Assembly (NCBI GenBank): GCA_016874755.1
Contig: VGTH01000049.1
Location: 1-41,282, forward strand
DNA: 41,282 bases
Origin: Deltaproteobacteria bacterium
Lineage (GTDB): Bacteria > Desulfobacterota > Binatia > UBA9968
Direction: 5' to 3'
The notes below the pieces were generated by a model that saw only the letters and a program-made list of their open reading frames with translations, searched no databases and was not told the origin of the DNA. The position numbers and the translations under genes were made by a program. Below are positions 6,509 to 23,325 of the stretch, piece after piece; the first letter of the stretch is position 1; each line of letters begins with the position of its first letter.

Positions 6509-6585
6509 CCTCGCGCAAAGCTCGCAAAGGACGCCAAGTTCGGAAAGAAATCGTTTCTTTGCGTCCTTTGCGCCTTTGCGCGAGG
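6509..6585. repeat. Family A palindromic repeat between coxL and coxM
   Basis: A long imperfect hairpin. The left arm 6509-6544 starts CCTCGCGCAAAG and ends AAGTTCGGA; the right arm 6558-6585 is TTTGCGTCCTTTGCG then CCTTTGCGCGAGG. It sits between two genes of one operon, where it could fold in the mRNA and change the relative expression of coxL and coxM. It is the same family as 20685-20760. Confidence 0.8.
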
Positions 6586-6613: not shown

Positions 6614-8926
6614 TCACTTGCGCACTCTCTTTTTCGCAGCCGTGCTCGCCTGGCAGGCACGCCAGATTTTCTGCGGCGTCAGCGGCATGTCGAGATGGCT
6701 GACGCCGAGGGGCGCCAGCGCGTCAATGACCGCGCTGACGACTGCGGGCGTCGAGCCGATGGTGCCGGCTTCGCCGATGCCTTTGATGCCGAGCGGGTTT
6801 ACCGGCGTCGGTGTTTCGGTGTGCGCGAGCTGAAAGCGCGGCAGATCGGCGGCGCGCGGAACTGCGTAGTCCATCAGGCTGCCGGTGGTGAGTTGGCCGT
6901 TGTCGTCGTAGACCACGGCTTCATAGAGCGCCTGTCCGAGCCCTTGGGCAATGCCGCCTTGGACCTGTCCGTCGGCCAGCAGGGGATTGATCACTTTGCC
7001 GCAATCGTCCACCGCGAGATATTTTTTGATTTCGATTTGGCCGGTTTCGGGCTCGATCTCGACGACGCAAATGTGAGTGCCGAAGGGAAACGTAAAGTTA
7101 GACGGTTCGAAGGTCGAGTCGGCGGAAATTTCGCTGGCGAGATTGGCGGCCGCAGCTTGGCGCGCGATTTGTTGAATCGTCATGCCTTTGCGCGGCACGC
7201 CTTTGACGATGAATTTGTCATCGCTGAAGACCACATCCTCGGTTGCGGCTTCCAATAGTTGGGCGGCCAGTTCCTGCGCCTTCTTTTTAACTTCTTCGGC
7301 GGCGTGATAAATCGCGATGCCACCGACTGCCGTGGCGCGGCTGCCGAAAGTCCCCATGCCTTTTGCCACGGTGCCGGTGTCGCCGTGCAGCACTTCGACG
7401 TCGTCGAAGTCGACGCCCAATTGGTCGGCGACGATCTGGGCAAACGAAGTTTTCTGGCCCTGGCCGTGGGGCGACGCGCCGGAATAGACTTTGACTTTGC
7501 CGTCCGCTTTGACATCGACTTTGCCGTACTCCCAAAAGCCCGGGCCCATGGCGCAGATCTCGACGTAGGTGGAAACTCCGATACCAAGGTAGCGGCCTTT
7601 GCCGCGGGCGCGCTTTTGCTCCGCGCGCAGTTTGTCGTAACCGACAAGTTTCAACGCTTTGCTCAAGGCAAGCTCATAGTTGCCGCTGTCGTAGACAAGC
7701 CCTGTCGCGGTTTTGAAGGGAAACTCGGCGGGTTTGGGAAAGTTTCGCTGGCGCACTTTGACGGGATCGAGCTTTAACTCCCGGGCGACGCGATCCATCA
7801 AACGCTCGATGACATAAGTTGCTTCGGGCCGGCCGGCGCCGCGGTAGGCATCGGTTGACATTTTATTAGTGAATGCGGCTCTGACGGCAATGCCGATTGC
7901 CGGAATCTTGTAACAGCCCGAGAGCATCAAGCCGGTAAACGGCGGAATCGCCGGCGTGAACAATTGGTGATAGGCGCCAATGTCGGCAATGACGTTGTAA
8001 CGCAGGGCGAGAACCCTTCCATCTTTCTTCACCGCGGCTTCCACTTCGCCCACTTGGCCTCGGCCGTGGATGGTTGCCTGGATATTTTCGCGCCGCTCTT
8101 CGATCCATTTGACCGGTCGTTTCAACTCTAGCGCGAGGAATGCCAGTAAAGGCTCTTCGGCGTAGACGTTGAGCTTGCTGCCGAAGCCGCCACCGACTTC
8201 CGGTGCAATGACGCGCACTCGGGTTTCTGGTAGTTTGAGCAGGTTGGCGAGATGGCCTTTCACAAGGTGAGGAATCTGGGTTGACGTCCAGACGCAAAGT
8301 CCTTGAGTGTCAGAATAGTTGGCCAACACACCGCGGGTCTCCATGGCGATCGGTGCCAAGCGTTGGTGCACAAGCCGTTGCTTGACGATCTTATCCGCTT
8401 GCTTGAACGCCCCGGCGACGTTGCCCCGTTCCTGCTGCCAACGAAAGGCCAAGTTGTCGGGCCACTGCGCGTGAATGACCGGGGAGGCCGCCGTCAAAGC
8501 TTTTTCCGGATCGGTAACCGCCGGCAATGGTTCATAGTCGACTTCGATGAGATCGACGCCATCGCGCGCCGTGTAGCGATCTTCAGCGACGACGGCTGCC
8601 ACCGGTTCGCCGACATAGCAGGTTTTGTCGACTGCCAGCGCGCGATGATCGGGAATGCGCAGCGTCGGGTTGTCGGCGGTGGTGGGCAGCGTGCCGATGC
8701 GATTTTTCAGCTCCGCGCCAGTGTAGACAGCAACAACTCCGGCAAGCTGCCGCGCGGCACCGACAGCGATACGATTGATTTTGGCGTGCGCATGGGGACT
8801 GCGCAAAATCGCCGCGTGCAGGATGCCCGGCAACTTCACGTCGTCGACGTATTCGCCGACGCCGCGAATCAGGCTGGGATCTTCGCGGCGCTTAACCTTC
8901 GCGCCGACTAGTTTGCTAACAGGCAT
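6614..8926 (-). CDS. coxL: Molybdenum hydroxylase, molybdopterin large subunit (form II CoxL-like)
   Basis: 770 residues, the catalytic subunit carrying the molybdenum-cytosine dinucleotide cofactor. The active-site loop reads AYRGAGR (about residues 358-366). This is the signature of form II CoxL proteins and differs from the AYxCSFR of proven CO dehydrogenases. The catalytic base lies in GIGEAGTIGSTP near residue 718. The gene order coxS-coxL-coxM is also that of form II loci. The physiological substrate of form II enzymes is mostly unknown; a purine, aldehyde or N-heterocycle oxidation is as likely as CO. No cox accessory genes (coxD, E, F, G) are visible nearby. Confidence 0.92.
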   Translation of the reverse strand: MPVSKLVGAKVKRREDPSLIRGVGEYVDDVKLPGILHAAILRSPHAHAKINRIAVGAARQLAGVVAVYTGAELKNRIGTLPTTADNPTLRIPDHRALAVDKTCYVGEPVAAVVAEDRYTARDGVDLIEVDYEPLPAVTDPEKALTAASPVIHAQWPDNLAFRWQQERGNVAGAFKQADKIVKQRLVHQRLAPIAMETRGVLANYSDTQGLCVWTSTQIPHLVKGHLANLLKLPETRVRVIAPEVGGGFGSKLNVYAEEPLLAFLALELKRPVKWIEERRENIQATIHGRGQVGEVEAAVKKDGRVLALRYNVIADIGAYHQLFTPAIPPFTGLMLSGCYKIPAIGIAVRAAFTNKMSTDAYRGAGRPEATYVIERLMDRVARELKLDPVKVRQRNFPKPAEFPFKTATGLVYDSGNYELALSKALKLVGYDKLRAEQKRARGKGRYLGIGVSTYVEICAMGPGFWEYGKVDVKADGKVKVYSGASPHGQGQKTSFAQIVADQLGVDFDDVEVLHGDTGTVAKGMGTFGSRATAVGGIAIYHAAEEVKKKAQELAAQLLEAATEDVVFSDDKFIVKGVPRKGMTIQQIARQAAAANLASEISADSTFEPSNFTFPFGTHICVVEIEPETGQIEIKKYLAVDDCGKVINPLLADGQVQGGIAQGLGQALYEAVVYDDNGQLTTGSLMDYAVPRAADLPRFQLAHTETPTPVNPLGIKGIGEAGTIGSTPAVVSAVIDALAPLGVSHLDMPLTPQKIWRACQASTAAKKRVRK

Positions 8927-8951
8927 CTCGCTTCGCTTTCGCTACGCTCAA

Positions 8952-9005
8952 GTTTTGAGTTTAGGGTTTCGAGTCGCCTAACCCCTCACGCCTTACGCCT
9001 GACGC
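8952..9005. repeat. Short repeated words between coxS and coxL
   Basis: The 59-base coxS-coxL gap contains GGGTTTCGAGT (8964-8974), which recurs at 34930-34940 in the livH-livM gap. It is followed by CCTAACCCCTCACGCC, which partly resembles the sequence at 16231-16262. The similarity is short and the family weak, so this is a low-confidence interspersed repeat. Confidence 0.3.
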
Positions 9006-9489
9006 TCTTTGTCTTCGGCCTCATTTGTTTAGCCGCTTGCTGCACGGCATCGACGATATGCTGATACCCCGTGCAGCGGCACAGGTTGCCGTCGATGGCG
9101 TGGCGGATTTCCGTTTCGGTCGGTTTGGGGTTGCGCTGTAATAGTTGGTGAGCTGACAGAATCATGCCGGGCGTGCAGAAGCCGCATTGCAAACCGTGGC
9201 ACTCCCAAAAGGCCTCTTGAATCGGATGCAGTTTCACGCCGCGCGCCAGACCTTCGATGGTCAGCACTTCGCCGCCGTCGGCCTGCACCGCGAGCACGGT
9301 GCAGGATTTCACGGCGTTGCCGTTGAGCATGACCGTGCAGGCGCCGCAGATGCTCGTGTCGCAGCCGATGTGGGTCCCCGTAAGCCCGGCAACGTCGCGC
9401 AGCAGATGGACCAGAAGCAGGCGCGGCTCTACTTCGTAGGATTTTTCGCTGCCGTTGATGGAGAGCGTTATTGGCTTTTTCGTTGCCAT
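8986..9489 (-). CDS. coxS: Molybdenum hydroxylase, [2Fe-2S] small subunit (CoxS/CutS-like)
   Basis: 167 residues with two iron-sulfur clusters. The N-terminal plant-type ferredoxin domain has Cys at about 43, 48, 51 and 63 ([17 protein letters not shown]). The C-terminal helical domain has the second cluster, QCGFCTPGM (about 102, 105) and LCRCTGY (137, 139). It moves electrons from the molybdenum site of CoxL to the FAD of CoxM. It is the first gene of the operon and diverges from the tetR gene at 9705 across about 215 bases that hold a hairpin, a promoter and an operator. Confidence 0.93.
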
Positions 9490-9557
9490 CGTCTATCGAC
9501 GCTATAACGCAACGAACCACCGTGAAGCAAACCCAAATACAAAAAACTCCGAGGGTA

Positions 9558-9577
9558 GGGCGCGATTGATCGCGCCC
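9558..9577. repeat. GC-rich REP-like hairpin
   Basis: A perfect 8-bp stem GGGCGCGA / TCGCGCCC with a TTGA loop, in the intergenic space between divergent coxS and tetR. No T-run follows on either strand, so it looks more like a repetitive extragenic palindrome than an intrinsic terminator. Confidence 0.6.
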
Positions 9578-9651
9578 GTTGTCCCGGCCGCGGCCGTGCG
9601 CAATGAATTGCGCTCCGGCTGCGAAATGCGTTCGGCCGTTGCCCAAAGCGC

Positions 9652-14640: not shown

Positions 14641-16140
14641 ATAAGCAAGCGAAAACCGTCCACGGCTACAACCGATAAGTCGGTGTTTTAATCGCTTGAC
14701 GGACTTTTTTCAGACAAACAATTTAGAGGAAAAAACTATGAAACGAAAAATTACATTATCAATCGCGCTCGTTTTGAGCCTTGTTTTAGTATCGCTGATG
14801 AGTTCGGATTCGCCCGTCGGGGCGCAACCGCCGCAAAGATTTAGGGTTGCCACAGGTGTCATCACTCCCGCCGCGGGTCAGACACTCCGCGTTACGGTTG
14901 GTCGGGGATTTAGGGTTGACGACGTTAGCGTGCGCTTTATGTGGAGGCAATATATGGCGGCAGGTTGTAGCGGGATGCCTTCAATGTGCCGCCACACCGT
15001 TGCCTCGCAAGGCGCTACGCTACCGACAGCACTGGGCGATGACACTCTTTCGTTCGATATGCCGGGAAACGGAAACGGAGTCAATGTAGTAGTCGAGGGC
15101 AACAGTCGAAACGTCCAGATCAATGCCATGATTTTCAACAACGCTACGGGGGAAATTACGGCACTGTTGAGCGCCGGTGAAGTGGACACGTGGTGATGTT
15201 AATGGCGATGGCGTTTATACCAAAAAGACCAACCATGCTGGCGGACGCGAAAGAACTGCGCGGACATTCGAGATACGGCTTTCGCGCGATAATGTCAAAG
15301 CCGCTTGGAGAAATCTCGATTTGACACCCGGAAAGGTTGAAAAACTTTAGCTCGACCCGATAAACCATTTTCAAAAAAAATCGTGTAAAATACCTGAGAA
15401 GTTTTTCCGGTAAATTTTATGCGCGATATTCCCGTTGGCAATGGCTCTCTGCTGGTAACATTTAACGAAAAATATCAAATCCGCGACGTCTTCTTTCCGC
15501 ACGTCGGGCAGGAGAATCATACGGAAGGTTTTCCGTTTCGGTTCGGCGTGTTCGCGGACGGCGAATTTTCGTGGATTTTTGAGGGCGATTGGCAAATTTC
15601 GCTTAAATACTTGCCTGAAACACTTGTTACAGATGCCAAATTAACTAATGAAAATTTAGGTTTGGAGATTGTTTCAAACGACACGGTGGCGAGCCACGAA
15701 AATATTTTTCTGCGGCGTGTTCGTGTGTCGAATCTGCTCGATAAGACGCGGGATGTTCGGATTTTTCTGCACCACGATTTTCGGATTTCGGAAAACAAAA
15801 TCGGCGACACGGCGTTTTATGAACCGGAAGCACTCGCGCTTGTCCATTACAAAAAAAACCGCTATTTTTTGATAAATTCGCGCCGCATTTTGACGCATTT
15901 TCTACGGGACGCAAGGCTTTCCGCGACCAGGAAGGCACTTGGCGCGACGCGGAAGACGGCGCGTTGAACGGCGGCGCGATAACCGAAGGCTCGGTAGATT
16001 CGACCGTTCAGATAAATTTAAACATCGAACCGCAAGGCGTGAAAGAATTTTATTATTGGATTTGCGCGGGCAAATCTTTACAGGAAGTTTCCGAGCTAAA
16101 CACGCATATCAAAAAGCAAACGCCCGAACGGTTTCTCAAA
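14641..16140. mobile_element. A+T-rich segment between direct repeats (putative import or chimeric join)
   Basis: Composition and codon use change visibly: many A- and T-runs and A/T-ending codons (AAA, ATT, TTT), against G/C-ending codons in the flanks. It contains a frameshifted secreted protein and a truncated, frameshifted GH15 glucoamylase. Both look most like proteins of Acidobacteriota such as Blastocatellia (from memory of the families, not a search). There is no transposase or integrase. It starts with an imperfect hairpin (about 14647-14695, arms AAGCGA / TCGCTT). Integration by recombination at the repeat, or a misassembly joining two genomes through a shared repeat, would both give this picture. 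Confidence 0.55.
14738..15350 (+). pseudogene. Secreted protein with Ca-binding-like tail, split by a frameshift
   Basis: The ATG at 14738 (AGAGGAA upstream) opens a 152-codon frame with a clear signal peptide (KITLSIALVLSLVLVSLMSS, cleavage near VGA). A beta-rich domain follows, containing TPAAGQTLRVTV, VRFMWRQYMAAG and CSGMPSMCRH, ending at the TGA at 15194-15196. Skipping one base there continues directly as GDVNGDGVYTKKTNHAGGRE and EIRLSRDNVKAAWRNLDL, stopping at 15350. The DVNGDG part is a dockerin/EF-hand-like calcium loop. The most economical reading is one protein of about 200 residues broken by a +1 shift at ACGTGGTGA. Function unknown. Confidence 0.55.
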
Positions 16141-16152
16141 TCCGAGGATTGA
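15419..16152 (+). pseudogene. GH15 glucoamylase-like protein, N-terminal domain fragment
   Basis: The frame from 15419 starts MRDIPVGNGSLLVTFNEKYQ, then VFFPHVGQENHTEG, HENIFLRRVRVSNL and VRIFLHHDFRISENKIGDTA. These are hallmark blocks of the N-terminal beta-sandwich of bacterial GH15 glucoamylases/trehalases. After RYFLIN (about 15890) the family sequence resumes in the -1 frame as FDAFSTGRKAF, then EGTWRDAEDGAL, GSVDSTVQINL and FYYWICAGKSLQEVSELN. It stops at TGA 16150-16152 inside the right direct repeat. The catalytic (alpha/alpha)6 barrel, most of the roughly 600-residue protein, is absent. The gene is therefore both frameshifted and cut at the repeat border. Confidence 0.75.
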
Positions 16153-16226
16153 CACGCTCACCGGTTCAGCGCTATATCTCCGCCAAGAAAAATAGGTGGT
16201 TTAAATTTCCTATACATCCTATACAT
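16141..16226 (+). repeat. Direct repeat, right copy
   Basis: 86 bases, the partner of 14556-14640. The first 12 bases (TCCGAGGATTGA) provide the stop codon of the GH15 fragment, so the gene was cut exactly at the repeat edge. Confidence 0.85.
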
Positions 16227-16268
16227 TTTGGACGCCCTTACTCCTTACTGCTCACCCCTCACGAATTC

Positions 16269-17282
16269 TCAGAGGTTGTACAGCGCTTTAGGATTGTCAT
16301 AGAGAATCTTGTCGATATGCGTCGCCGGGACATTGCCTTGGCGCCGGATGTTTTTTAGCGCCTCGATTTCGGCGGAGGTATCGTTGTGGCCGTAGTCCGA
16401 ACCGATGACGATGTTGTCTTCGCCGGCGTATTGCAAAACATAACTGAGATCGTCGTCGGTTTGGCAGGCGACGTAAAGGTGGTTCTCGCGCATGATGTCG
16501 CTCGGAGATTTCAGGCCATGCTGTTTGTAGCGGCGTGCCAACTCGTGAATCACGTAGGGCACCCATTGGGCTTTGACTTCGATGAAACCGAATCTCAAGT
16601 TGGGAAACATGGCGGGAATACCCTTGTAGACCAGCGTGTGAAAGGCGATTAGCACCGGTAATTTAAACAGCGAAAAGCCGCTCTCGCGCTCGAAATGATT
16701 CATCCATTGGAAGTCTCCGGTGGAGGCGTGGATGCAGATCGCAATATTGCGCTCGGCGGCGAGCTGGTAGAGCGGAAAGAAATAGGCGTCGCTGAGCAAG
16801 CGATCTTCGACCAAGCCGCGGATAAACAAACCGACCGCGCCGTTGTCTGCGGCGAAGCGAGTCTCGGCCAGTGTGTCTTCCATGTTGAGCACCGGCAGCG
16901 TCGCCACCCAGCGCAAGCGCTTTTGGCTCTTGCTGCACAGCTCAGCAATCCAGCGATTGTAGCTGCGGCACAAGGCGACTTCGATTTCCGGTCGATTGGT
17001 CAGCGGGGTTAAGAAGACCGTCGGGTAAAGCACCTGGACATCGACGCCCAACTGGTCCATGTGGCGCAGGCGCGCTTCGACCTCGCGCATCTCGCTGGAG
17101 GCGGCCGGCAGTTCCGTGCTGACGGGACCGCGTTCAAAGGGCCGGCGATCGATTAACCAAAATTGTTTGCGGCCATCCTGGCTGGCGACCATGACCGGAC
17201 GAAACTTGTTTTCCGATTCTCGCAAGTAGTCCCAGGTGTGTTCCGATTCAATAACGTGAGCGTCGGCGTCGATGATGGCCAT
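16269..17282 (-). CDS. Amidohydrolase family 2 protein (ACMSD-like decarboxylase/hydrolase)
   Basis: 337 residues, a TIM-barrel metal enzyme of the PF04909 family that includes aminocarboxymuconate-semialdehyde decarboxylase and gamma-resorcylate decarboxylase. The metal-binding start is DADAHVIE (5-12). Later blocks are AICIHASTGDF with a third His and IGSDYGHND near the C-terminus with the conserved Asp. These enzymes decarboxylate or hydrolyse aromatic-derived acids. It is the last gene of the minus-strand operon, 89 bases after the TPP enzyme, with AAGGAATT ahead of its ATG. The context suggests it acts on a ring-cleavage product. Confidence 0.87.
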   Translation of the reverse strand: MAIIDADAHVIESEHTWDYLRESENKFRPVMVASQDGRKQFWLIDRRPFERGPVSTELPAASSEMREVEARLRHMDQLGVDVQVLYPTVFLTPLTNRPEIEVALCRSYNRWIAELCSKSQKRLRWVATLPVLNMEDTLAETRFAADNGAVGLFIRGLVEDRLLSDAYFFPLYQLAAERNIAICIHASTGDFQWMNHFERESGFSLFKLPVLIAFHTLVYKGIPAMFPNLRFGFIEVKAQWVPYVIHELARRYKQHGLKSPSDIMRENHLYVACQTDDDLSYVLQYAGEDNIVIGSDYGHNDTSAEIEALKNIRRQGNVPATHIDKILYDNPKALYNL

Positions 17283-17371
17283 GACCGAATTCCTTGTAAT
17301 TAGAAACCCGAGCGCTGGGCATGAGTGGGGGTGCTCCCCTCACTCCTCAGCCCCTGTCCTCACGGGATTTT

Positions 17372-19087
17372 CTAGTGCGTGCCGCAAATCACGTTTAACA
17401 CGGCTTGGCGCTTATCTTCCTTGACCACTTTCAGTGCGCGCTTGAGCGCGGGCAGCATGTCCGCTGGATTGTCGACCATCTCGCCGTAACCGTCATGGGC
17501 CGAGACGATTCTTTCATAGCGCGGCGACGGCGCGAGGGAGGTCAGCGGATAATTGTTCGTGCTGGCGGACCAACCGTCGGGCAAGACCTGTTGGGTCGCC
17601 GCTTTGCTGGAATTCCAAATCGCATTGTTGCAGATGATCGTCAACAGCGGCAAGTCGTAGGCGTGGGAAACGAAGTGACAGGCCGTCGGATTGTTGAACA
17701 TGTACGTCCCGTCGCCGCAGGTCACGATGACAGTTTTCTCGGGCCGTGCGAGCTTCATGCCCAAGCCGCCGCCGATGCCCCAGCCCAGGCCGCCGGCGGG
17801 TGAGCCGCCGAAGTAGGTCGCGGGTTTGCTGACGGTCAAATACTCGCTGCCGACGCCGTGGTCGCTGATGACGATGGTGTCATCGTCTCTGAGTTGATCG
17901 ATGCAATGGGCCATCCATGCGTGGCTTATCGGCGTTGCGCCGCGGTCATGTTCGAGCTTTTGCTTCAGACCTTCGCGGTACTTCTTGTTCTTCGCGCGAA
18001 TCTGCTCGGCACGCTCGGACAGTGCGCTGCCGCGGCTGGCGCTTTGTAGCTCTTGCGCTAAAAGCTCCAAAGCTAATTTCGGATCGCCACCAATAGAAAT
18101 GTCTTTGGGGAAGCTCCGTATCGGAATATCGCCGTAATTGGGATCGCGGGCGATTTGTATGACTGTGGCATTTTCCGGCGGCGTGCCTTGACGCGGGTAC
18201 CACGGCACATCGGACTCAACGACGACTACTACGTCAGCCTCCTTGATGTACGGCATGGAGTTGGTCCCCAAATAGAATTCGTGCGTGTTGGGAAAACTGA
18301 CGAATGGACTGGCGGGTGTGACCACAGGGGCGACCAGCGCCTCGGCGAACCCAACCAGCGATTTCATCGCGGTCGGGTCGGAGCCTAGGCGGCCGGTGAT
18401 GATTACGGGACTCTTTGCACTGCGGAGAACTTCCGCGGTGCGTTTGATCGAGGCTGTGCTCGGTGCCAAGGGCTCACTCTGTGCTTTGCGATTGGGGTGA
18501 ATGACGAGGGAGTCCATCTTTTGCGCCAACACCTCGCGCGGCAGAGTTAAATAAACAGGTCCCTGAGGAGTGCCCGTCGCCATTTCGATGGCGCGATCGA
18601 CGACGGCTTCCAACTGCTCGCCGTTGCGCAGCTCGTAGTCCCAGCGAGTGAATTCGCGCAGCAAGCTGCCCTGATCGAAAGATTCTTGCCCCCAGTGAAT
18701 AAAGTTGCTGCGGCTGCCGCGCATGCCGGTTTCGGTGAGCGGCGTGCGCCCGGCGGAGAAAATCATCGGTACGTTGAGCCGTGAGGCGTTCATCACCGCC
18801 GCCGACGCATTGCCGGTGCCGACAATGACATGAACCATGACCACTTGGGGCTCGCCGGTGAGCATCGCATAGCCTTGCGCCATGCTGACGGCGACGAACT
18901 CATGCGGCACCGTGATCGGCACCGGATGGTTTTTCTTTTCGCTGGCGAATTTCGCCAGGCCATCGATAATCGGCCCGAAGTCCGTGCCGCTGTTGCCGAA
19001 AAAATACTTGATGCCACGAGCGCGCAGCAGTTCTAGATAAGCCTGGCCGACGGTTTCGACTGGGAGGGTAACGGTTTTCTTTTCCAT
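17372..19087 (-). CDS. Thiamine pyrophosphate-dependent enzyme (acetolactate synthase / decarboxylase-like)
   Basis: 571 residues from the ATG at 19087, chosen because AGGAGT precedes it; a longer frame would overlap the FGE-like gene. Three domains are visible: the PYR domain with catalytic Glu63 in PHEFVAVSMAQGYAML, a central DHS-like domain with VIITGRLGSDP, and the PP domain with the TPP-Mg motif GDGTYMFNNPTA near 455 ending in ICNN. Such enzymes decarboxylate or ligate 2-oxo acids. Length and start fit the 'TPP-requiring protein' group near benzoylformate decarboxylase and acetolactate synthase large subunits. No small regulatory subunit is present, so a catabolic 2-oxo-acid reaction is more likely than branched-chain synthesis. 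Confidence 0.88.
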   Translation of the reverse strand: MEKKTVTLPVETVGQAYLELLRARGIKYFFGNSGTDFGPIIDGLAKFASEKKNHPVPITVPHEFVAVSMAQGYAMLTGEPQVVMVHVIVGTGNASAAVMNASRLNVPMIFSAGRTPLTETGMRGSRSNFIHWGQESFDQGSLLREFTRWDYELRNGEQLEAVVDRAIEMATGTPQGPVYLTLPREVLAQKMDSLVIHPNRKAQSEPLAPSTASIKRTAEVLRSAKSPVIITGRLGSDPTAMKSLVGFAEALVAPVVTPASPFVSFPNTHEFYLGTNSMPYIKEADVVVVVESDVPWYPRQGTPPENATVIQIARDPNYGDIPIRSFPKDISIGGDPKLALELLAQELQSASRGSALSERAEQIRAKNKKYREGLKQKLEHDRGATPISHAWMAHCIDQLRDDDTIVISDHGVGSEYLTVSKPATYFGGSPAGGLGWGIGGGLGMKLARPEKTVIVTCGDGTYMFNNPTACHFVSHAYDLPLLTIICNNAIWNSSKAATQQVLPDGWSASTNNYPLTSLAPSPRYERIVSAHDGYGEMVDNPADMLPALKRALKVVKEDKRQAVLNVICGTH

Positions 19088-19104
19088 AGAATGGACTCCT
19101 GATT

Positions 19105-19632
19105 TTATGCGATTTGTTTTTGTATTAGATCGATCAGCCAACTCACCGGCGTCTGATCTTGCACGCAGCGAAAGCCCTTGACGCCGTTTTTCCAATGGGG
19201 CAAATAGCGGTGCGAGCAGTCGCAGGTGTTGGCCGGGCCGCACATAGCTTTGTAGGTTTCGCCGCCGCTGCCGACGTCGGTCGAAGTCCATTCCCAGATG
19301 TCGCCGCGCTTCTTGAGCTTGTTCGATTCACAAGTCGACTTCCATTCATCCATTGTCGGCAGACGTTGGCCGATGAATCGACAATAACCAGCCGCCTCGT
19401 GAAAGTTGATCAGGACGACGGCGTCGTTCTCTTTGCCGGACGGAATGCGGCCGTTGATCCAGTACTCCGGCGCGGCGGCTCGGGTCGCAACCACAAATTT
19501 CAAATATTCCGCGTTGGTCACCTCGGTTGAGTTGAAGGTTGCGGATGCAAGGAGATAAATCGGCAGAACGATTGACCATAGGTGGCCAAAGCATGCTGTT
19601 GAAAGTCGACGAACCGAAAACCCAACCTTCAT
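19105..19632 (-). CDS. Exported SUMF1/FGE-like protein, minimal
   Basis: 175 residues, short for the formylglycine-generating-enzyme/EgtB/PvdO fold (usually about 230-300). An N-terminal hydrophobic stretch (about 14-32, CFGHLWSIVLPIYLLASA) suggests export. Family blocks are STEVTNAEYLKFV, VLINFHEAAGYCRFIGQRLP (the 'v.W.eA.aYC.W.G.RLPTe.EW' block) and GFRCVQD near the end. The C-terminal part contains clustered cysteines (MCGPANTCDCSH) in place of the usual GG-WL/GFR core, so catalytic residues may be altered. No sulfatase gene is near. Its ATG overlaps the TGA of the bicupin gene (ATGA), implying translational coupling. Confidence 0.72.
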   Translation of the reverse strand: MKVGFSVRRLSTACFGHLWSIVLPIYLLASATFNSTEVTNAEYLKFVVATRAAAPEYWINGRIPSGKENDAVVLINFHEAAGYCRFIGQRLPTMDEWKSTCESNKLKKRGDIWEWTSTDVGSGGETYKAMCGPANTCDCSHRYLPHWKNGVKGFRCVQDQTPVSWLIDLIQKQIA

Positions 19633-20654
19633 GCGGTTTCCTCGCGATAAAGTCCCAAGGCTCTCAACACCGGTGCATCGCTCATCGAAAACAAGATCGC
19701 GTCGTCGGTCGATGAAGAGTTGCTATGCCGGTGCGGGTTCCATACCGGTACGATGAAGGAGTCGCCTTTTTGCCATTCAAAGCGCTGCCCGCCGATCTCG
19801 CTTGCGCCGTGGCCGCGAAAAACGTGGTACAGCGTTGTGCTGGTGTGGCGATGGGATTCGGTTTTCTCGTTAGCGGATAAAAGTTGAGCGCTGCATTGAA
19901 TCGTCGTCATGGTCGGACCATTGGTGAGTGGGTTGCGGTATTCGAGCAAGTAGCCGTCGTAGTTGCTGTGAGCTCCGCGCGCGCGCATGGAGGCGCGCAG
20001 GGTTTTTTCTGTGTCCGTCCAGCGATAGTGGAAAAGGTCCTCGACGCGAAGGCCATGGCGCACGGCGCCGTCGAGGGTGGCGTTGACTTCGTCGCTGTCT
20101 CTCTCGATGGGTTGACGGCGGGTTGGGTAGCGTTCTTGCATGACCTGGTGCAACGCGGTGATCAGCGGAAAGTCCAAGCCATCGAGCCACACCATCGGTT
20201 CCGTTGAGCCATTGGAGTGGTCGTGCCAGCTCATCGCCGGCGTCAGAATCAAATCGCCGGGTTCCATGACGCACTGCTGACCATTGACCGTCGTGTAAGC
20301 GCCGTGGCCTTGGAGGACAAACCGCAATGCCGCGGGCGTGTGACGATGGGCACGCGCGTTTTCGCCGGGCTTGACGTACTGAAACGAAACTTGCAGCGTC
20401 TGCGAGGCAAAGCCACGGCCCTTATCGAGACCAGGATTGACGAGCCGCACGACGCGCCGCTCGCTCTGCTCCAAGCTGATCACTTCGCCCGCGCGCACCA
20501 GGCTGCCGTAAACATCGGCCCACTTCCACAAACACGGCTGCACCGGCGTGATCGGCTCCGATGGCAGACCTTCCATGCCAAGGCTCCAGTAGCCGGAGAG
20601 GTTCATGCCGACCATGTCGCGGTCGAGCTGGGCGATGCTATCGGGTTGTTTCAT
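19629..20654 (-). CDS. Gentisate 1,2-dioxygenase-like bicupin ring-cleavage dioxygenase
   Basis: 341 residues with two cupin domains, as in gentisate, salicylate and 1-hydroxy-2-naphthoate dioxygenases, which cleave an aromatic ring next to a carboxyl group with Fe(II). The first cupin has His103 and His105 (ARAHRHTPAALRFVLQG) and MSWHDH (144, 146). The second has ESHRHTSTTLYHVFRGHG (268, 270) and NPHRH (308, 310), so both domains keep possible metal ligands. The true substrate is not readable. The start (AAGGTG upstream) overlaps the stop of the small ORF before it, and its stop overlaps the FGE-like start, making a tight operon. Confidence 0.87.
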   Translation of the reverse strand: MKQPDSIAQLDRDMVGMNLSGYWSLGMEGLPSEPITPVQPCLWKWADVYGSLVRAGEVISLEQSERRVVRLVNPGLDKGRGFASQTLQVSFQYVKPGENARAHRHTPAALRFVLQGHGAYTTVNGQQCVMEPGDLILTPAMSWHDHSNGSTEPMVWLDGLDFPLITALHQVMQERYPTRRQPIERDSDEVNATLDGAVRHGLRVEDLFHYRWTDTEKTLRASMRARGAHSNYDGYLLEYRNPLTNGPTMTTIQCSAQLLSANEKTESHRHTSTTLYHVFRGHGASEIGGQRFEWQKGDSFIVPVWNPHRHSNSSSTDDAILFSMSDAPVLRALGLYREETA

Positions 20655-20977
20655 ATTTGCACCTTAAGACCAGGTTCGGAGATGCCTCGCGCAAAGGCGC
20701 AAAGGGCGCAAAGAAAAAGTTTTTTTTCCGAACTTTGCGTCCTTTGCGCCTTTGCGCGAGAAAATCTGATTCGAGTCTGCTCATCTAGGGAACGTCCGCT
20801 GCGGTATTGGCTCTTGTAAACCATATCGACCCACATGGGCTGATGCGACGCCACCAAGCCGTTCTTGTACGCATTGCCGCAGTAGTGCGCCGGTTTGAGC
20901 TTGTCCCAGATAATGTAGCGTTTGGCGTCGATGCAGTCTTCGTCAACTGATGCTGCGACGACTTTGCCGCACACCAT
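20651..20977 (-). CDS. Small unknown protein whose 3' end runs through a family A repeat
   Basis: 108 residues from the ATG at 20977 (GGAGG upstream, 8-base spacing). The first ~65 residues look like real protein: VCGKVVAASVDEDC, then RYIIWDKLKPAHYCGNAYKN and SHQPMWVDMVYKSQY. I do not recognise the family. From about residue 66 the frame enters the palindromic repeat (20685-20760), giving RAKAQR and LCALCAFAR, which is translated repeat. The natural C-terminus was probably lost or replaced. Its TGA overlaps the ATG of the bicupin gene (ATGA), so it may serve as a translation-coupling leader for the operon. Confidence 0.5.
   Translation of the reverse strand: MVCGKVVAASVDEDCIDAKRYIIWDKLKPAHYCGNAYKNGLVASHQPMWVDMVYKSQYRSGRSLDEQTRIRFSRAKAQRTQSSEKKLFLCALCAFARGISEPGLKVQI
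20685..20760. repeat. Family A palindromic repeat, best copy
   Basis: Left arm CCTCGCGCAAAGGCGCAAAG onwards, right arm CTTTGCGTCCTTTGCG then CCTTTGCGCGAG, separated by an A/T-rich loop (20714-20732). The arms pair over about 28 bases with few mismatches. GTTCGGAGATG lies just outside (20674-20684). It is the same family as 6509-6585 and the half copies at 2477 and 25623. Confidence 0.85.
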
Positions 20978-21061
20978 GGGCGTTGCCTCCAAGTTGGAAC
21001 CTAGCTGAAACGAATCGACGGCGTCAAACTGCTTTCTTTCCTTCTCCGAACGATTGTTGTT

Positions 21062-22048
21062 ATGATCCGGCCCATGTTTGTTCGCACGCTGTTGCTTCTT
21101 ATCCTAGTCGTGGTGGCATGCCAACCGGGCTATTCGGCACAGGTTACGCCGGAGACCATTCGCATCGCCATTCCCGGCAAGCTCATCGACTTTGCGCCGT
21201 TCTTTGTCGGTGCCAAAACCGGGATCTATCGCAGCGAGGGGCTGGAGCCGCAGTTCATCGTCATGCGCAGCGGCATCGTGATTCCGGCGATGCTCTCGGG
21301 TGAAATCGACTACACCACGCTTTACGGCTCGACGATTCGCTCGGCGGTGACCGGTTTGCCGCTGAAAGTCATTGCGACATTGATTACCAAGCAGAGTTTC
21401 TTTCTGTTTTCGCAGCCGGATATTCGTCGCGTGCAGGATCTTAAAGGCAAGCGCGTGGCGATCTCCAATTTCGCCAGCTCGACGGACAAGGCAGCGCGCG
21501 CCGCACTGAAAACCGGCAGCATCGAAGCGATGCGCGACGTGACGTTGATCGCCATGGGGGACACCAACGTGCGCTTTCAGTCGCTGGTGTCCGGCGCCAT
21601 TGAAGCGGCGATTCTCACACCGCCTTACACCGTCATGGCGGAACAAAAGAAACTGAATAATCTGGTCTGGTTGGGCGACGTTTTGGGCGATCAGCCGTCC
21701 AACGGGCTGAGTACCAGCGTGAAGAAGTTGAAGGAGCAGCCGGATCAGGTCATGCGTTTCTTGCGCGCGTCGCTGCGTAGCATGATCTATACCCGTGAGC
21801 ACAAGCAGGAAGCGCTGCCGATTTTGCTGAAAGAGTTTCCCGGCCTCGATCGTAACACGTTGGCAGGGACGCTCGACTTTTACCTCAAAGCGATGAGCCC
21901 GGATGGGCGTGTCAGCGAGGTGATTTTGCAAGAGTTGATCAACGAGCAGCGCGAGCTGGTCAACGTCAAGAATGAAGTGCCGATCTCGCAGGTGGCCGAC
22001 TTTGGGCCTTTGCAGCGGGTATTAAAAGAATTGGGCAGCGCGAAATAG
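21062..22048 (+). CDS. NMT1/THI5-like periplasmic SBP, possibly lipid-anchored
   Basis: 328 residues. The N-terminus is hydrophobic (TLLLLILVVVACQPGYSA); VVAC could be a lipobox, otherwise cleavage falls after YSA. The mature part begins with ETIRIAIPGKLIDFAPFFVG and AKTGIYRSEGLEPQFI, the standard NMT1/SsuA opening, with DLKGKRVAISNFASSTD in the hinge region. Start at 21062 or at the ATG four codons later. No permease genes follow: the next gene, 11 bases on, is a flavin monooxygenase. It diverges from the ring-cleavage operon at 20977, so the SBP ligand may be that operon's substrate. Confidence 0.87.
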   Translation: MIRPMFVRTLLLLILVVVACQPGYSAQVTPETIRIAIPGKLIDFAPFFVGAKTGIYRSEGLEPQFIVMRSGIVIPAMLSGEIDYTTLYGSTIRSAVTGLPLKVIATLITKQSFFLFSQPDIRRVQDLKGKRVAISNFASSTDKAARAALKTGSIEAMRDVTLIAMGDTNVRFQSLVSGAIEAAILTPPYTVMAEQKKLNNLVWLGDVLGDQPSNGLSTSVKKLKEQPDQVMRFLRASLRSMIYTREHKQEALPILLKEFPGLDRNTLAGTLDFYLKAMSPDGRVSEVILQELINEQRELVNVKNEVPISQVADFGPLQRVLKELGSAK

Positions 22049-22059
22049 GAGGAGTGGTC

Positions 22060-23100
22060 ATGCGCTTTGGAACTTTCAGCTATAACCAGCGCCGCCCGGG
22101 CGTCGCAGAGAAACAAGCGTTCGATGAATTGCTCGAGCAGATCGAATTGACCGAGAAGCTTGGGTTTAACGAAGCCTGGTTCGCTGAGCATCATCATTCC
22201 GATTACGGCATGCTGGCTTCGCCGAATCTGATGACCGCGGCTTTGGCGCGGCGCACAGAGCGAATGCGCTTCGGCAATCTCATTAGTGTTCTGCCGCTCT
22301 ACGATCCGATGCGGCTTGCCGAAGAGTGCGCCATGCTCGATGTCATGACCGGTGGGCGATTGAACGTCGGCCTCGGCCGCGGCGTGCCGAAAGACGACAT
22401 GAAGCATCGGCTCGATCGCGAGAGCGCGCAGGCGCGCTTCGATGAAGGTGTCGAGATTCTCATGAAAGCCTGGACGGGTGAGACGTTTAGTTATCAAGGC
22501 AAAGCCTGGGGCTACGAAGAAATTTCTTGCCGCCCATTGCCGATACAAAAACCGCATCCGCCGATCTATTACGGCGCGACGTCGCCGGACAGCCCGGCGA
22601 TGGTTGCCAAGCGTGGCTGGAATCTCGCGCTGTCGCGCCAGCCGCTGGCGAATTGCGCCACGGCGATCAAGAAATATCGCGACGCGCGCGCGGCTGCGAA
22701 CTTGGCTGGTCAAGGCGATGCTATCATGGTGCGCGATATCTATGTCGCCGATACCGACGAGCAAGCATGGTGTGAAGCCGTTCCCGAACTGATGCGCTAC
22801 TGGCAGTTGGCGACGGATAATTATTGGCGGGGCGAGACGCTATCTGAGGCCGATCTTACGCGCTTTACCGAGCGCTACGCCTACTATCCTGGCGGGTTGA
22901 CGATCAAGCGTTTGGACGAGTGGGGCACGTCGCTGATCGGCAGTCCCGAGACCGTGATCAAGAAGGCCCGCGAGATGCTCGTGACGGCCAGGCCGGATAG
23001 CTTGGTGGGCATGTTCCAGTTCGGAGCTTTGAAGCACGAGCAGGTGATGCACTCGATTGAACTGTTCGGCAGGGAAGTTATGCCGGCGCTGGGGAGTTAA
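22060..23100 (+). CDS. LLM-class flavin-dependent oxidoreductase (bacterial luciferase-like)
   Basis: 346 residues from the ATG at 22060, preceded by AGGAGGAG. A TIM-barrel luciferase-like monooxygenase using reduced FMN supplied by a partner. Blocks typical of the family are WFAEHHHSDYGMLASPNLM near 41-59, RTERMRFGNLISVLPLYDP, and GRLNVGLGRGVPKDD near 101-115. A late segment WGTSLIGSPETVIKKAREML marks the end. Such enzymes hydroxylate or cleave aldehydes, sulfonates, nitrilotriacetate and other small molecules. It directly follows an NMT1-type SBP, a family often associated with sulfonate or aromatic uptake, so the pair probably captures and oxidises one compound (inference). Confidence 0.88.
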   Translation: MRFGTFSYNQRRPGVAEKQAFDELLEQIELTEKLGFNEAWFAEHHHSDYGMLASPNLMTAALARRTERMRFGNLISVLPLYDPMRLAEECAMLDVMTGGRLNVGLGRGVPKDDMKHRLDRESAQARFDEGVEILMKAWTGETFSYQGKAWGYEEISCRPLPIQKPHPPIYYGATSPDSPAMVAKRGWNLALSRQPLANCATAIKKYRDARAAANLAGQGDAIMVRDIYVADTDEQAWCEAVPELMRYWQLATDNYWRGETLSEADLTRFTERYAYYPGGLTIKRLDEWGTSLIGSPETVIKKAREMLVTARPDSLVGMFQFGALKHEQVMHSIELFGREVMPALGS

Positions 23101-23270
23101 AAGTAGTTAAAAAGCAAAAATTCAACATTAAAAAACTCGGATGCAAAGGCAACGCGTTTCTAACCCGCCTTTGACCTTACGCGGACAACGACGTCCGGAT
23201 GCCGCTTTTTTAGCCCGCCAAAATCCGTTTCCTCAGTCGAACCGTAGATAACGTTAGAAAGCGATGACGC

Positions 23271-23289
23271 TCACGGTTGCCAACCGTGA
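23271..23289. promoter_or_regulatory. Short hairpin upstream of the DUF4394 gene
   Basis: A perfect 8-bp dyad TCACGGTT-GCC-AACCGTGA, about 37 bases before the GTG start at 23326. The rest of the 225-base gap (23101-23325) shows nothing recognisable. It could be an operator or a leader hairpin. Confidence 0.35.
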
Positions 23290-23325
23290 CTCGTCCTTCA
23301 ATCAAACCTTATGAAGGAGAACACC

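Follow-up and report, generated by a model that had tools for sequence, protein, structure and literature searches.

The DNA analysed here, called the window below, is a single 41-kb contig (VGTH01000049.1, 41,282 nucleotides) of the 5.56-Mb, 101-contig genome of an uncultured soil bacterium belonging to Binatia. The minus strand of the window carries a tight row of four genes, in the order bicupin dioxygenase, FGE-like protein, thiamine pyrophosphate (TPP) enzyme, and amidohydrolase, with junctions of -4, +17, and +89 bases. The row is probably a young, lineage-specific mosaic cluster for aromatic-acid catabolism and not a conserved new pathway, because relatives of the bacterium carry these genes in different places. 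The genes and other features of the locus are:

16269-17282, minus strand: Amidohydro_2 protein of 337 residues (Pfam E-value 1.4e-18)
17372-19087, minus strand: TPP enzyme of 571 residues, NF006203, benzoylformate-decarboxylase-like (Pfam TPP_enzyme N, M, and C; NCBIfam 638.3 bits)
19105-19632, minus strand: half-size protein of the FGE/EgtB fold with a hydrophobic N-terminus, 175 residues (Pfam FGE-sulfatase, E-value 1e-10)
19629-20654, minus strand: gentisate/salicylate-type bicupin dioxygenase of 341 residues (Cupin_2 in two stretches; solved gentisate dioxygenases)
20651-20992, minus strand: open reading frame (ORF) made of a flavin reductase C-terminal remnant and repeat read-through (tblastn against the flavin reductase of congener G001)
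20684-20760, no strand: dispersed hairpin repeat resembling repetitive extragenic palindromes (REP) or miniature inverted-repeat transposable elements (MITE) (half-site count; ends placed by eye)
21062-22048, plus strand: NMT1-type solute-binding protein (SBP), divergent (Pfam NMT1, E-value 3.5e-24)
22054-23100, plus strand: LLM-class flavin-dependent oxidoreductase (Pfam Bac_luciferase, E-value 1.5e-58)

All six genes are at the positions given by the initial annotation of this DNA, and Pfam assigns their families; the SBP and the LLM oxidoreductase diverge from the minus-strand row as it had described. The bicupin and FGE-like genes do overlap by an ATGA at 19629-19632, and the two spacers measure 17 and 89 bases as stated. 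A second ATGA, at 20651-20654, had been read as coupling two of the four enzymes; the overlap is real, but the partner of the bicupin gene there is the ORF with the flavin reductase remnant. The TPP gene starts at the Met codon at 19087, which follows an AGGAG sequence and agrees with the starts in relatives, whereas the mechanically delimited ORF begins at 19291. Given such close junctions, the row may well now be transcribed as one unit. Terminator-like sites within 15900-23300 are fewer than expected by chance (5 found, 9.6 expected).

Conservation of the gene order across genomes, which the initial annotation had itself put forward as the check on its proposal, was examined in 34 relatives from the same taxonomic order, in the stretches fetched around the orthologous loci. 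The order is not conserved. Bicupin orthologues, defined by at least 56% identity (the next protein below, from G007, has 53% and was not counted), occur in 12 of the 34 relatives, with identities of 56-75%. At an E-value of 1e-10, none of these 12 loci holds an FGE or TPP gene, with less than about 600 bases 3' of the bicupin visible in G001, G002 (where the gene itself is cut), G005, and G031. A similar amidohydrolase (43%) is present in one of the 12, at a distance of about 5.3 kb. On contig C33 of G013, the region about 10-13 kb from the bicupin, beyond the fetched stretch, contains a TPP paralogue of distant similarity (29%) and a different amidohydrolase (49%).

Orthologues of the FGE-like protein (46-71% identity) were found in 10 of the 34 relatives, with two copies in G029, and on three Tectomicrobia contigs and in one Deltaproteobacteria bin, which together give 15 distinct loci once eight loci that had been found twice are counted a single time. 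Most of these mini-FGE frames were placed by tblastn, since they were missed by a gene caller based on codon usage. No bicupin or TPP gene is present in any of the 15 loci, among which the FGE gene of G015 and that of L188 are truncated by the end of the contig, and the visible upstream sequence is shorter than about 500 bases in G010, G027, G030, and G032. An amidohydrolase or pieces of one were found in two of the 15, as the adjoining gene in G013 and about 7.5 kb away in G015. The FGE-like gene and the bicupin of G028, a genome listed as one contig, are 0.85 Mb apart, at 2.199 and 1.346 Mb. The congeners G001-G004 have weak FGE-like matches or none (best E-value 1.7e-5; G003 is 67% complete). 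A conserved four-gene pathway was therefore rejected, as the set is absent from the bicupin and FGE-like loci of relatives.

In congeners, the genes that flank the FGE-like gene in the window belong to two separate units. The bicupin unit has the order SDR, flavin reductase, bicupin, NMT1 in G001, where the NMT1 call is a 52-residue piece under the Pfam cut-off, and flavin reductase, bicupin in G002. An NMT1-like SBP adjoins the bicupin or lies one gene off in all five loci of the same family (G001, G002, G005, G013, and G015), and four of these five SBPs were recognised at 28-32% identity to NMT1 proteins of the window. Downstream of the bicupin in G028, G030, and G032 come five genes like those of the branched-chain-type ABC transporter of the window (Pfam check of the window's five genes and two of G028's). 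Because NMT1-like SBPs or ABC transporter genes accompany the bicupin orthologues, what the loci have kept in common is uptake beside ring opening, and not the FGE and TPP neighbours.

Three proteins are closely related to the TPP enzyme (71-80% identity), and the amidohydrolase is kept in one of their loci. In G004, where about 0.6 kb upstream of the TPP gene is visible, the TPP gene is directly followed by a 91% identical amidohydrolase orthologue and then by an SBP. In G002, the TPP gene is followed by LigB, LigA, and an SBP that is 76% identical to that of G004. In G014, the TPP gene is cut by the contig end, and EamA and FAD_binding_3 monooxygenase genes lie downstream. The nearest TPP orthologues thus adjoin aromatic-ring enzymes of unrelated families, LigB/LigA in G002 and the FAD_binding_3 monooxygenase in G014. 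On the bicupin side, DNA similarity to G001 breaks off at most a few bases from the stop codon. On the TPP side, similarity to G002 ends at the start codon and that to G004 ends 22 bases upstream of it. The FGE-like gene occupies exactly the seam between the bicupin and TPP similarity blocks. Separately, the intact TPP gene in locus L167 (contig C667 of G002) is preceded, about 1 kb upstream, by a second copy of its first codons (8582-8650; 23 residues, 91%).

The ORF at 20651-20992, which starts with TTG and encodes 113 residues, has no Pfam match of its own. Positions 20813-20977 encode 55 residues near the end of a flavin reductase, with 84% identity to residues 143-197 of the 207-residue G001 protein (tblastn). 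The flavin reductase is intact in G001 and G002, where Pfam recognises the genes as Flavin_Reduct, and the ORF of the window continues past the flavin reductase part by reading through the hairpin repeat. A fifth enzyme at the upstream ATGA was accordingly rejected: the ORF holds only a truncated flavin reductase. The half-sites of the hairpin, of the sequence GCGCAAAGGCGCAAAG, are at 20689-20704 (plus strand) and 20742-20757 (minus strand). The genome contains 51 exact half-sites and none of the reversed control; further half-sites in the window are at 6566 and 25627.

We propose that a bicupin unit, preceded in congeners by a flavin reductase and accompanied by a nearby NMT1-type SBP, came to lie upstream of a TPP-amidohydrolase unit, with a free-standing mini-FGE gene between the two. 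The flavin reductase would have been cut down to its remnant. In the resulting cluster, an NMT1-type binding protein would take up an aromatic acid, the bicupin Fe(II) dioxygenase would open the ring to give a 2-oxo acid, the benzoylformate-decarboxylase-like TPP enzyme would decarboxylate a 2-oxo acid, and the amidohydrolase would hydrolyse or decarboxylate a later intermediate. The three-step route suggested by the initial annotation survives in part: ring opening plus 2-oxo-acid chemistry is plausible, given the iron motif of the bicupin, the Glu and His residues of the TPP enzyme, and the ring enzymes beside TPP orthologues, but a role for the FGE-like protein is unsupported and the set of genes is not conserved.

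Several observations weigh against a catabolic mosaic. No sigma-70-like promoters were found within 15900-23300, where 2.9 are expected by chance, and the residues that line the substrate pocket of gentisate and salicylate dioxygenases are different in the bicupin. The genome of the bacterium is crowded with the families in question. Of 32 bicupin matches in it, 13 are full-length proteins of this type and one is a fragment that contains a stop. Scoring 150 of 182 candidates gave at least 154 Amidohydro_2 matches, and scoring 150 of 332 candidates gave at least 150 NMT1 matches; G028 has 116 Amidohydro_2 matches. Adjacency to an amidohydrolase or NMT1 gene carries less weight in a genome so rich in both. 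A TPP gene adjoins a bicupin in this genome only, and there in one of the 13 cases, that of the window. Four other same-strand TPP-amidohydrolase pairs of the genome have the amidohydrolase upstream of the TPP gene, opposite to the window (C2:95633-98417, C6:147260-150396, C16:53051-55694, and C42:2584-5269). No TPP gene of the 15 in G028 lies within 2 kb of an amidohydrolase, with 1.28 expected, and amidohydrolases within 5 kb of bicupins in the bacterium's own genome (6 of 13, strands ignored) exceed the expected 3.1 at a p of 0.06.

These expectations assume a uniform gene density, and the p values are uncorrected for the several distances and pairings used; 150 of the 154 amidohydrolases and 150 NMT1 genes entered the calculation. 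The TPP set comprised 17 genes from 20 matches in the own genome (two pieces on C63 were merged and two partial matches on C22 dropped) and 15 of 18 matches in G028, where the three weakest were dropped. A same-strand amidohydrolase lies within 700 bases of five of the 17 TPP genes (0.87 expected, p 0.001), or of four of 16 when the pair of the window is set aside (p 0.008). The same holds for four of the 13 bicupins (0.56 expected, p 0.002), which do not include that of the window. When strands are ignored, amidohydrolases start within 1.5 kb of five of 13 bicupins and NMT1 genes near one of 13 (1.0 expected in each case), and NMT1 genes lie within 5 kb of seven of 13 (3.1 expected, p 0.02). 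The TPP-amidohydrolase and bicupin-amidohydrolase pairings are both above the uniform expectation in the own genome; however, the first is absent in G028 and is thus not a rule of the taxonomic order. As a separate observation, the amidohydrolases of the genome cluster with each other, 49 of 150 lying within 3 kb of another where 22.4 are expected.

The crowding of the genome, the missing conservation of the gene order, and the unpaired TPP and amidohydrolase genes of G028 would all fit a row of unrelated neighbours, drawn from very large paralogous families and serving no common pathway. This is a rather unlikely explanation. The 4-base overlap and the 17-base gap speak against chance neighbours, as do the TPP-amidohydrolase pair kept in congener G004, its excess in the own genome, and the position of TPP orthologues beside unrelated ring-opening or ring-hydroxylating enzymes. 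In general terms, a tight operon seen in one genome can mislead where a single family of binding proteins has at least 150 members in that genome and amidohydrolases number about 150.

The alignment of the bicupin with solved gentisate dioxygenases (E-values 3.7e-65 and 8.4e-64) runs from one end to the other. The protein retains the HxH...H iron motif in its N-terminal cupin and with its two cupins belongs to the gentisate/salicylate-type superfamily. It resembles the gentisate and salicylate 1,2-dioxygenases 2d40, 3bu7, and 2phd over the full bicupin length, in an HRH...H iron motif, and in an "ALRF" region. However, it scores 287.5 bits against TIGR02272 gentisate 1,2-dioxygenase (cut-off 442.1) and 289.3 bits against the NCBIfam model of 5-aminosalicylate dioxygenase MabB (cut-off 650), and a true gentisate or 5-aminosalicylate dioxygenase was rejected on these scores. 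The three solved enzymes have an aromatic-A/S-G-I/L-Q stretch at positions that line the substrate pocket in salicylate dioxygenase. The bicupin of the window has Q-V-S-F-Q there, and its orthologues have Q/H-x-S-F-Q in an alignment of nine of the 12 (L087, L090, and L091, whose bicupin frames were missed by the gene caller and placed by tblastn, were left out). Because this stretch differs from that of the solved enzymes, the substrate may be other than plain gentisate or salicylate.

The TPP enzyme scores 638.3 bits on NF006203 (PRK08327), "thiamine pyrophosphate-requiring protein", above the cut-off of 456, and its family name carries no assigned reaction. Its best solved matches are benzoylformate decarboxylases (E-value 1e-33), with about 120 bits, and its score of 169.8 bits on the benzoylformate decarboxylase model NF005485 is far under the cut-off of 493. 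Thr35, Glu63, and His86 are invariant in all six aligned sequences. In benzoylformate decarboxylase, the residues aligned with them are Ser, Glu, and His, of which the Glu and His are catalytic. Since Glu63 and His86 are shared in this way, the enzyme is more likely to be a decarboxylase than an acetolactate synthase.

The same resemblance raises the possibility that the TPP enzyme acts before ring opening and decarboxylates an arylglyoxylate, as benzoylformate decarboxylase does, which would reverse the order of steps proposed in the initial annotation. The benzoylformate decarboxylases are the closest solved relatives, and the aligned Glu and His fit such a reaction. However, the similarity is limited to about 120 bits, NF006203 names no reaction, and no mandelate-type gene was found among the Pfam-tested part of the neighbours in the three near-orthologue loci. 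A TPP-first order is rather improbable.

The amidohydrolase had been described as ACMSD-like. ACMSD is not its closest characterised relative: both ACMSD and PtmU3 share its Amidohydro_2 Pfam family, but the best solved match is PtmU3 (E-value 1.1e-16, over residues 5-301), ahead of ACMSD at about 5e-8, and ACMSD in particular was rejected. The protein has no NCBIfam match at an E-value of 0.01 or better. The spacer between the TPP and amidohydrolase genes, 17283-17371, contains a GC-rich palindrome spotted by eye.

A TPP-dependent decarboxylase is combined with ring-opening dioxygenases in the lumichrome catabolic cluster of Nocardioides simplex, as described in passages of PMC12746152, which gives a precedent for the pairing of decarboxylation with ring opening that is proposed for the row. 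The lumichrome cluster differs in its two-subunit TPP enzyme, LumK/LumL, and in its use of Rieske and extradiol catechol dioxygenases in place of a bicupin; no FGE-like gene is named in the passages covered (PMC12746152). Among the papers found in an open-access library, no title or abstract shows the bicupin-FGE-TPP-amidohydrolase set, and none joins Binatota with amidohydrolase. The words gentisate, amidohydrolase, cupin, aromatic, substrate-binding, and paralog do not occur in the main text of PMC8262859, a paper on Binatota. A mosaic origin of the row would illustrate how catabolic clusters are assembled in an uncultured phylum. The occurrence of unrelated ring-opening families beside the same TPP enzyme, the bicupin here and LigAB in a congener, makes NF006203 a testable partner of ring cleavage.

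An assembly error is a further explanation for the unusual junction. The genome is in 101 contigs, its relatives are named as metagenome-assembled genomes, and the junction is unlike that of every relative examined. However, both junctions of the FGE-like gene coincide exactly with gene ends, with the stop-start overlap intact and Shine-Dalgarno-like sequences present, and GC content and GC content at third codon positions (GC3) are similar across the genes of the row, slightly lower in the FGE-like gene. A chimeric contig is very unlikely.

The FGE-like gene is a probable passenger in the row, with no supported role in the pathway, since in the fetched stretches of relatives no FGE locus holds a bicupin or TPP gene and no bicupin locus an FGE gene. 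Alternatively, the FGE-like protein might modify or mature one of the enzymes within a conserved four-step pathway. This reading would fit the overlapping bicupin-FGE junction of the own genome, but it is scarcely credible and largely refuted by the orthologues in 10 of the 34 relatives, which are not beside a bicupin or TPP gene in the stretches seen, and the N-terminus of the FGE-like protein looks exported where the enzymes look cytoplasmic.

The FGE-like protein scores 42.1 bits on Pfam FGE-sulfatase (gathering score 23.3), with the best stretch at profile positions 40-124 of 255. Its AlphaFold (AF2) model, with a predicted local distance difference test (pLDDT) value of 83, matches CalU17, SenA, CarF, EgtB, and FGE with Z-scores of about 12-15 over about 131 residues, at half their length. 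It shares the fold and the GxRLPT..EW, WEWT, and GFR motifs with the FGE/EgtB/SenA/CalU17/PvdO superfamily, from which it differs in its half length, in a C-terminal core of LCGPx3CxC[ST]H where the usual core is of the RGGSW type, and in being free-standing with variable neighbours. Cys84, Cys101, Cys131, Cys137, Cys139, Cys156, and His141 are common to all 13 aligned sequences, which comprise that of the window and those of 12 loci (L177-L188) among 15 on named contigs, with three weak betaproteobacterial matches (34-39% over 47-65 residues) omitted. The invariant Cys131, Cys137, and Cys139 fall in the region of the FGE C-terminal core, and their spacing is unlike that of the FGE copper-site Cys pair. 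The hydrophobic N-terminus indicates that the protein is probably exported.

Members of this free-standing family occur in Binatia and Tectomicrobia. Their neighbours vary and include an EutA-like gene in several Binatia, an aldehyde dehydrogenase in G013, an amidase in G015, and an LLM-like gene in L185. No sulfatase was found among the proteins put to Pfam, which were part of the window ORFs and of the family loci. A speculative and rather doubtful extension is that the gene represents an undescribed, minimal FGE/EgtB-fold family (core of about 140 residues), probably exported and with an invariant C-x5-C-x-C-x-H, whose members may be metal- or thiol-dependent enzymes and not dead lectin-like domains; here it would have joined an emerging operon whose bicupin acts on a non-gentisate aromatic and feeds the TPP decarboxylase. 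A scan of viral contigs gave a single weak, partial FGE-like match. In locus L098 of G013, an amidohydrolase in two pieces (8870-9645) lies directly upstream of the FGE-like gene. In the window, two overlapping ORFs at 15419-16152 appear by eye to be pieces of one glucoamylase-like gene, the first of them without a Pfam match.

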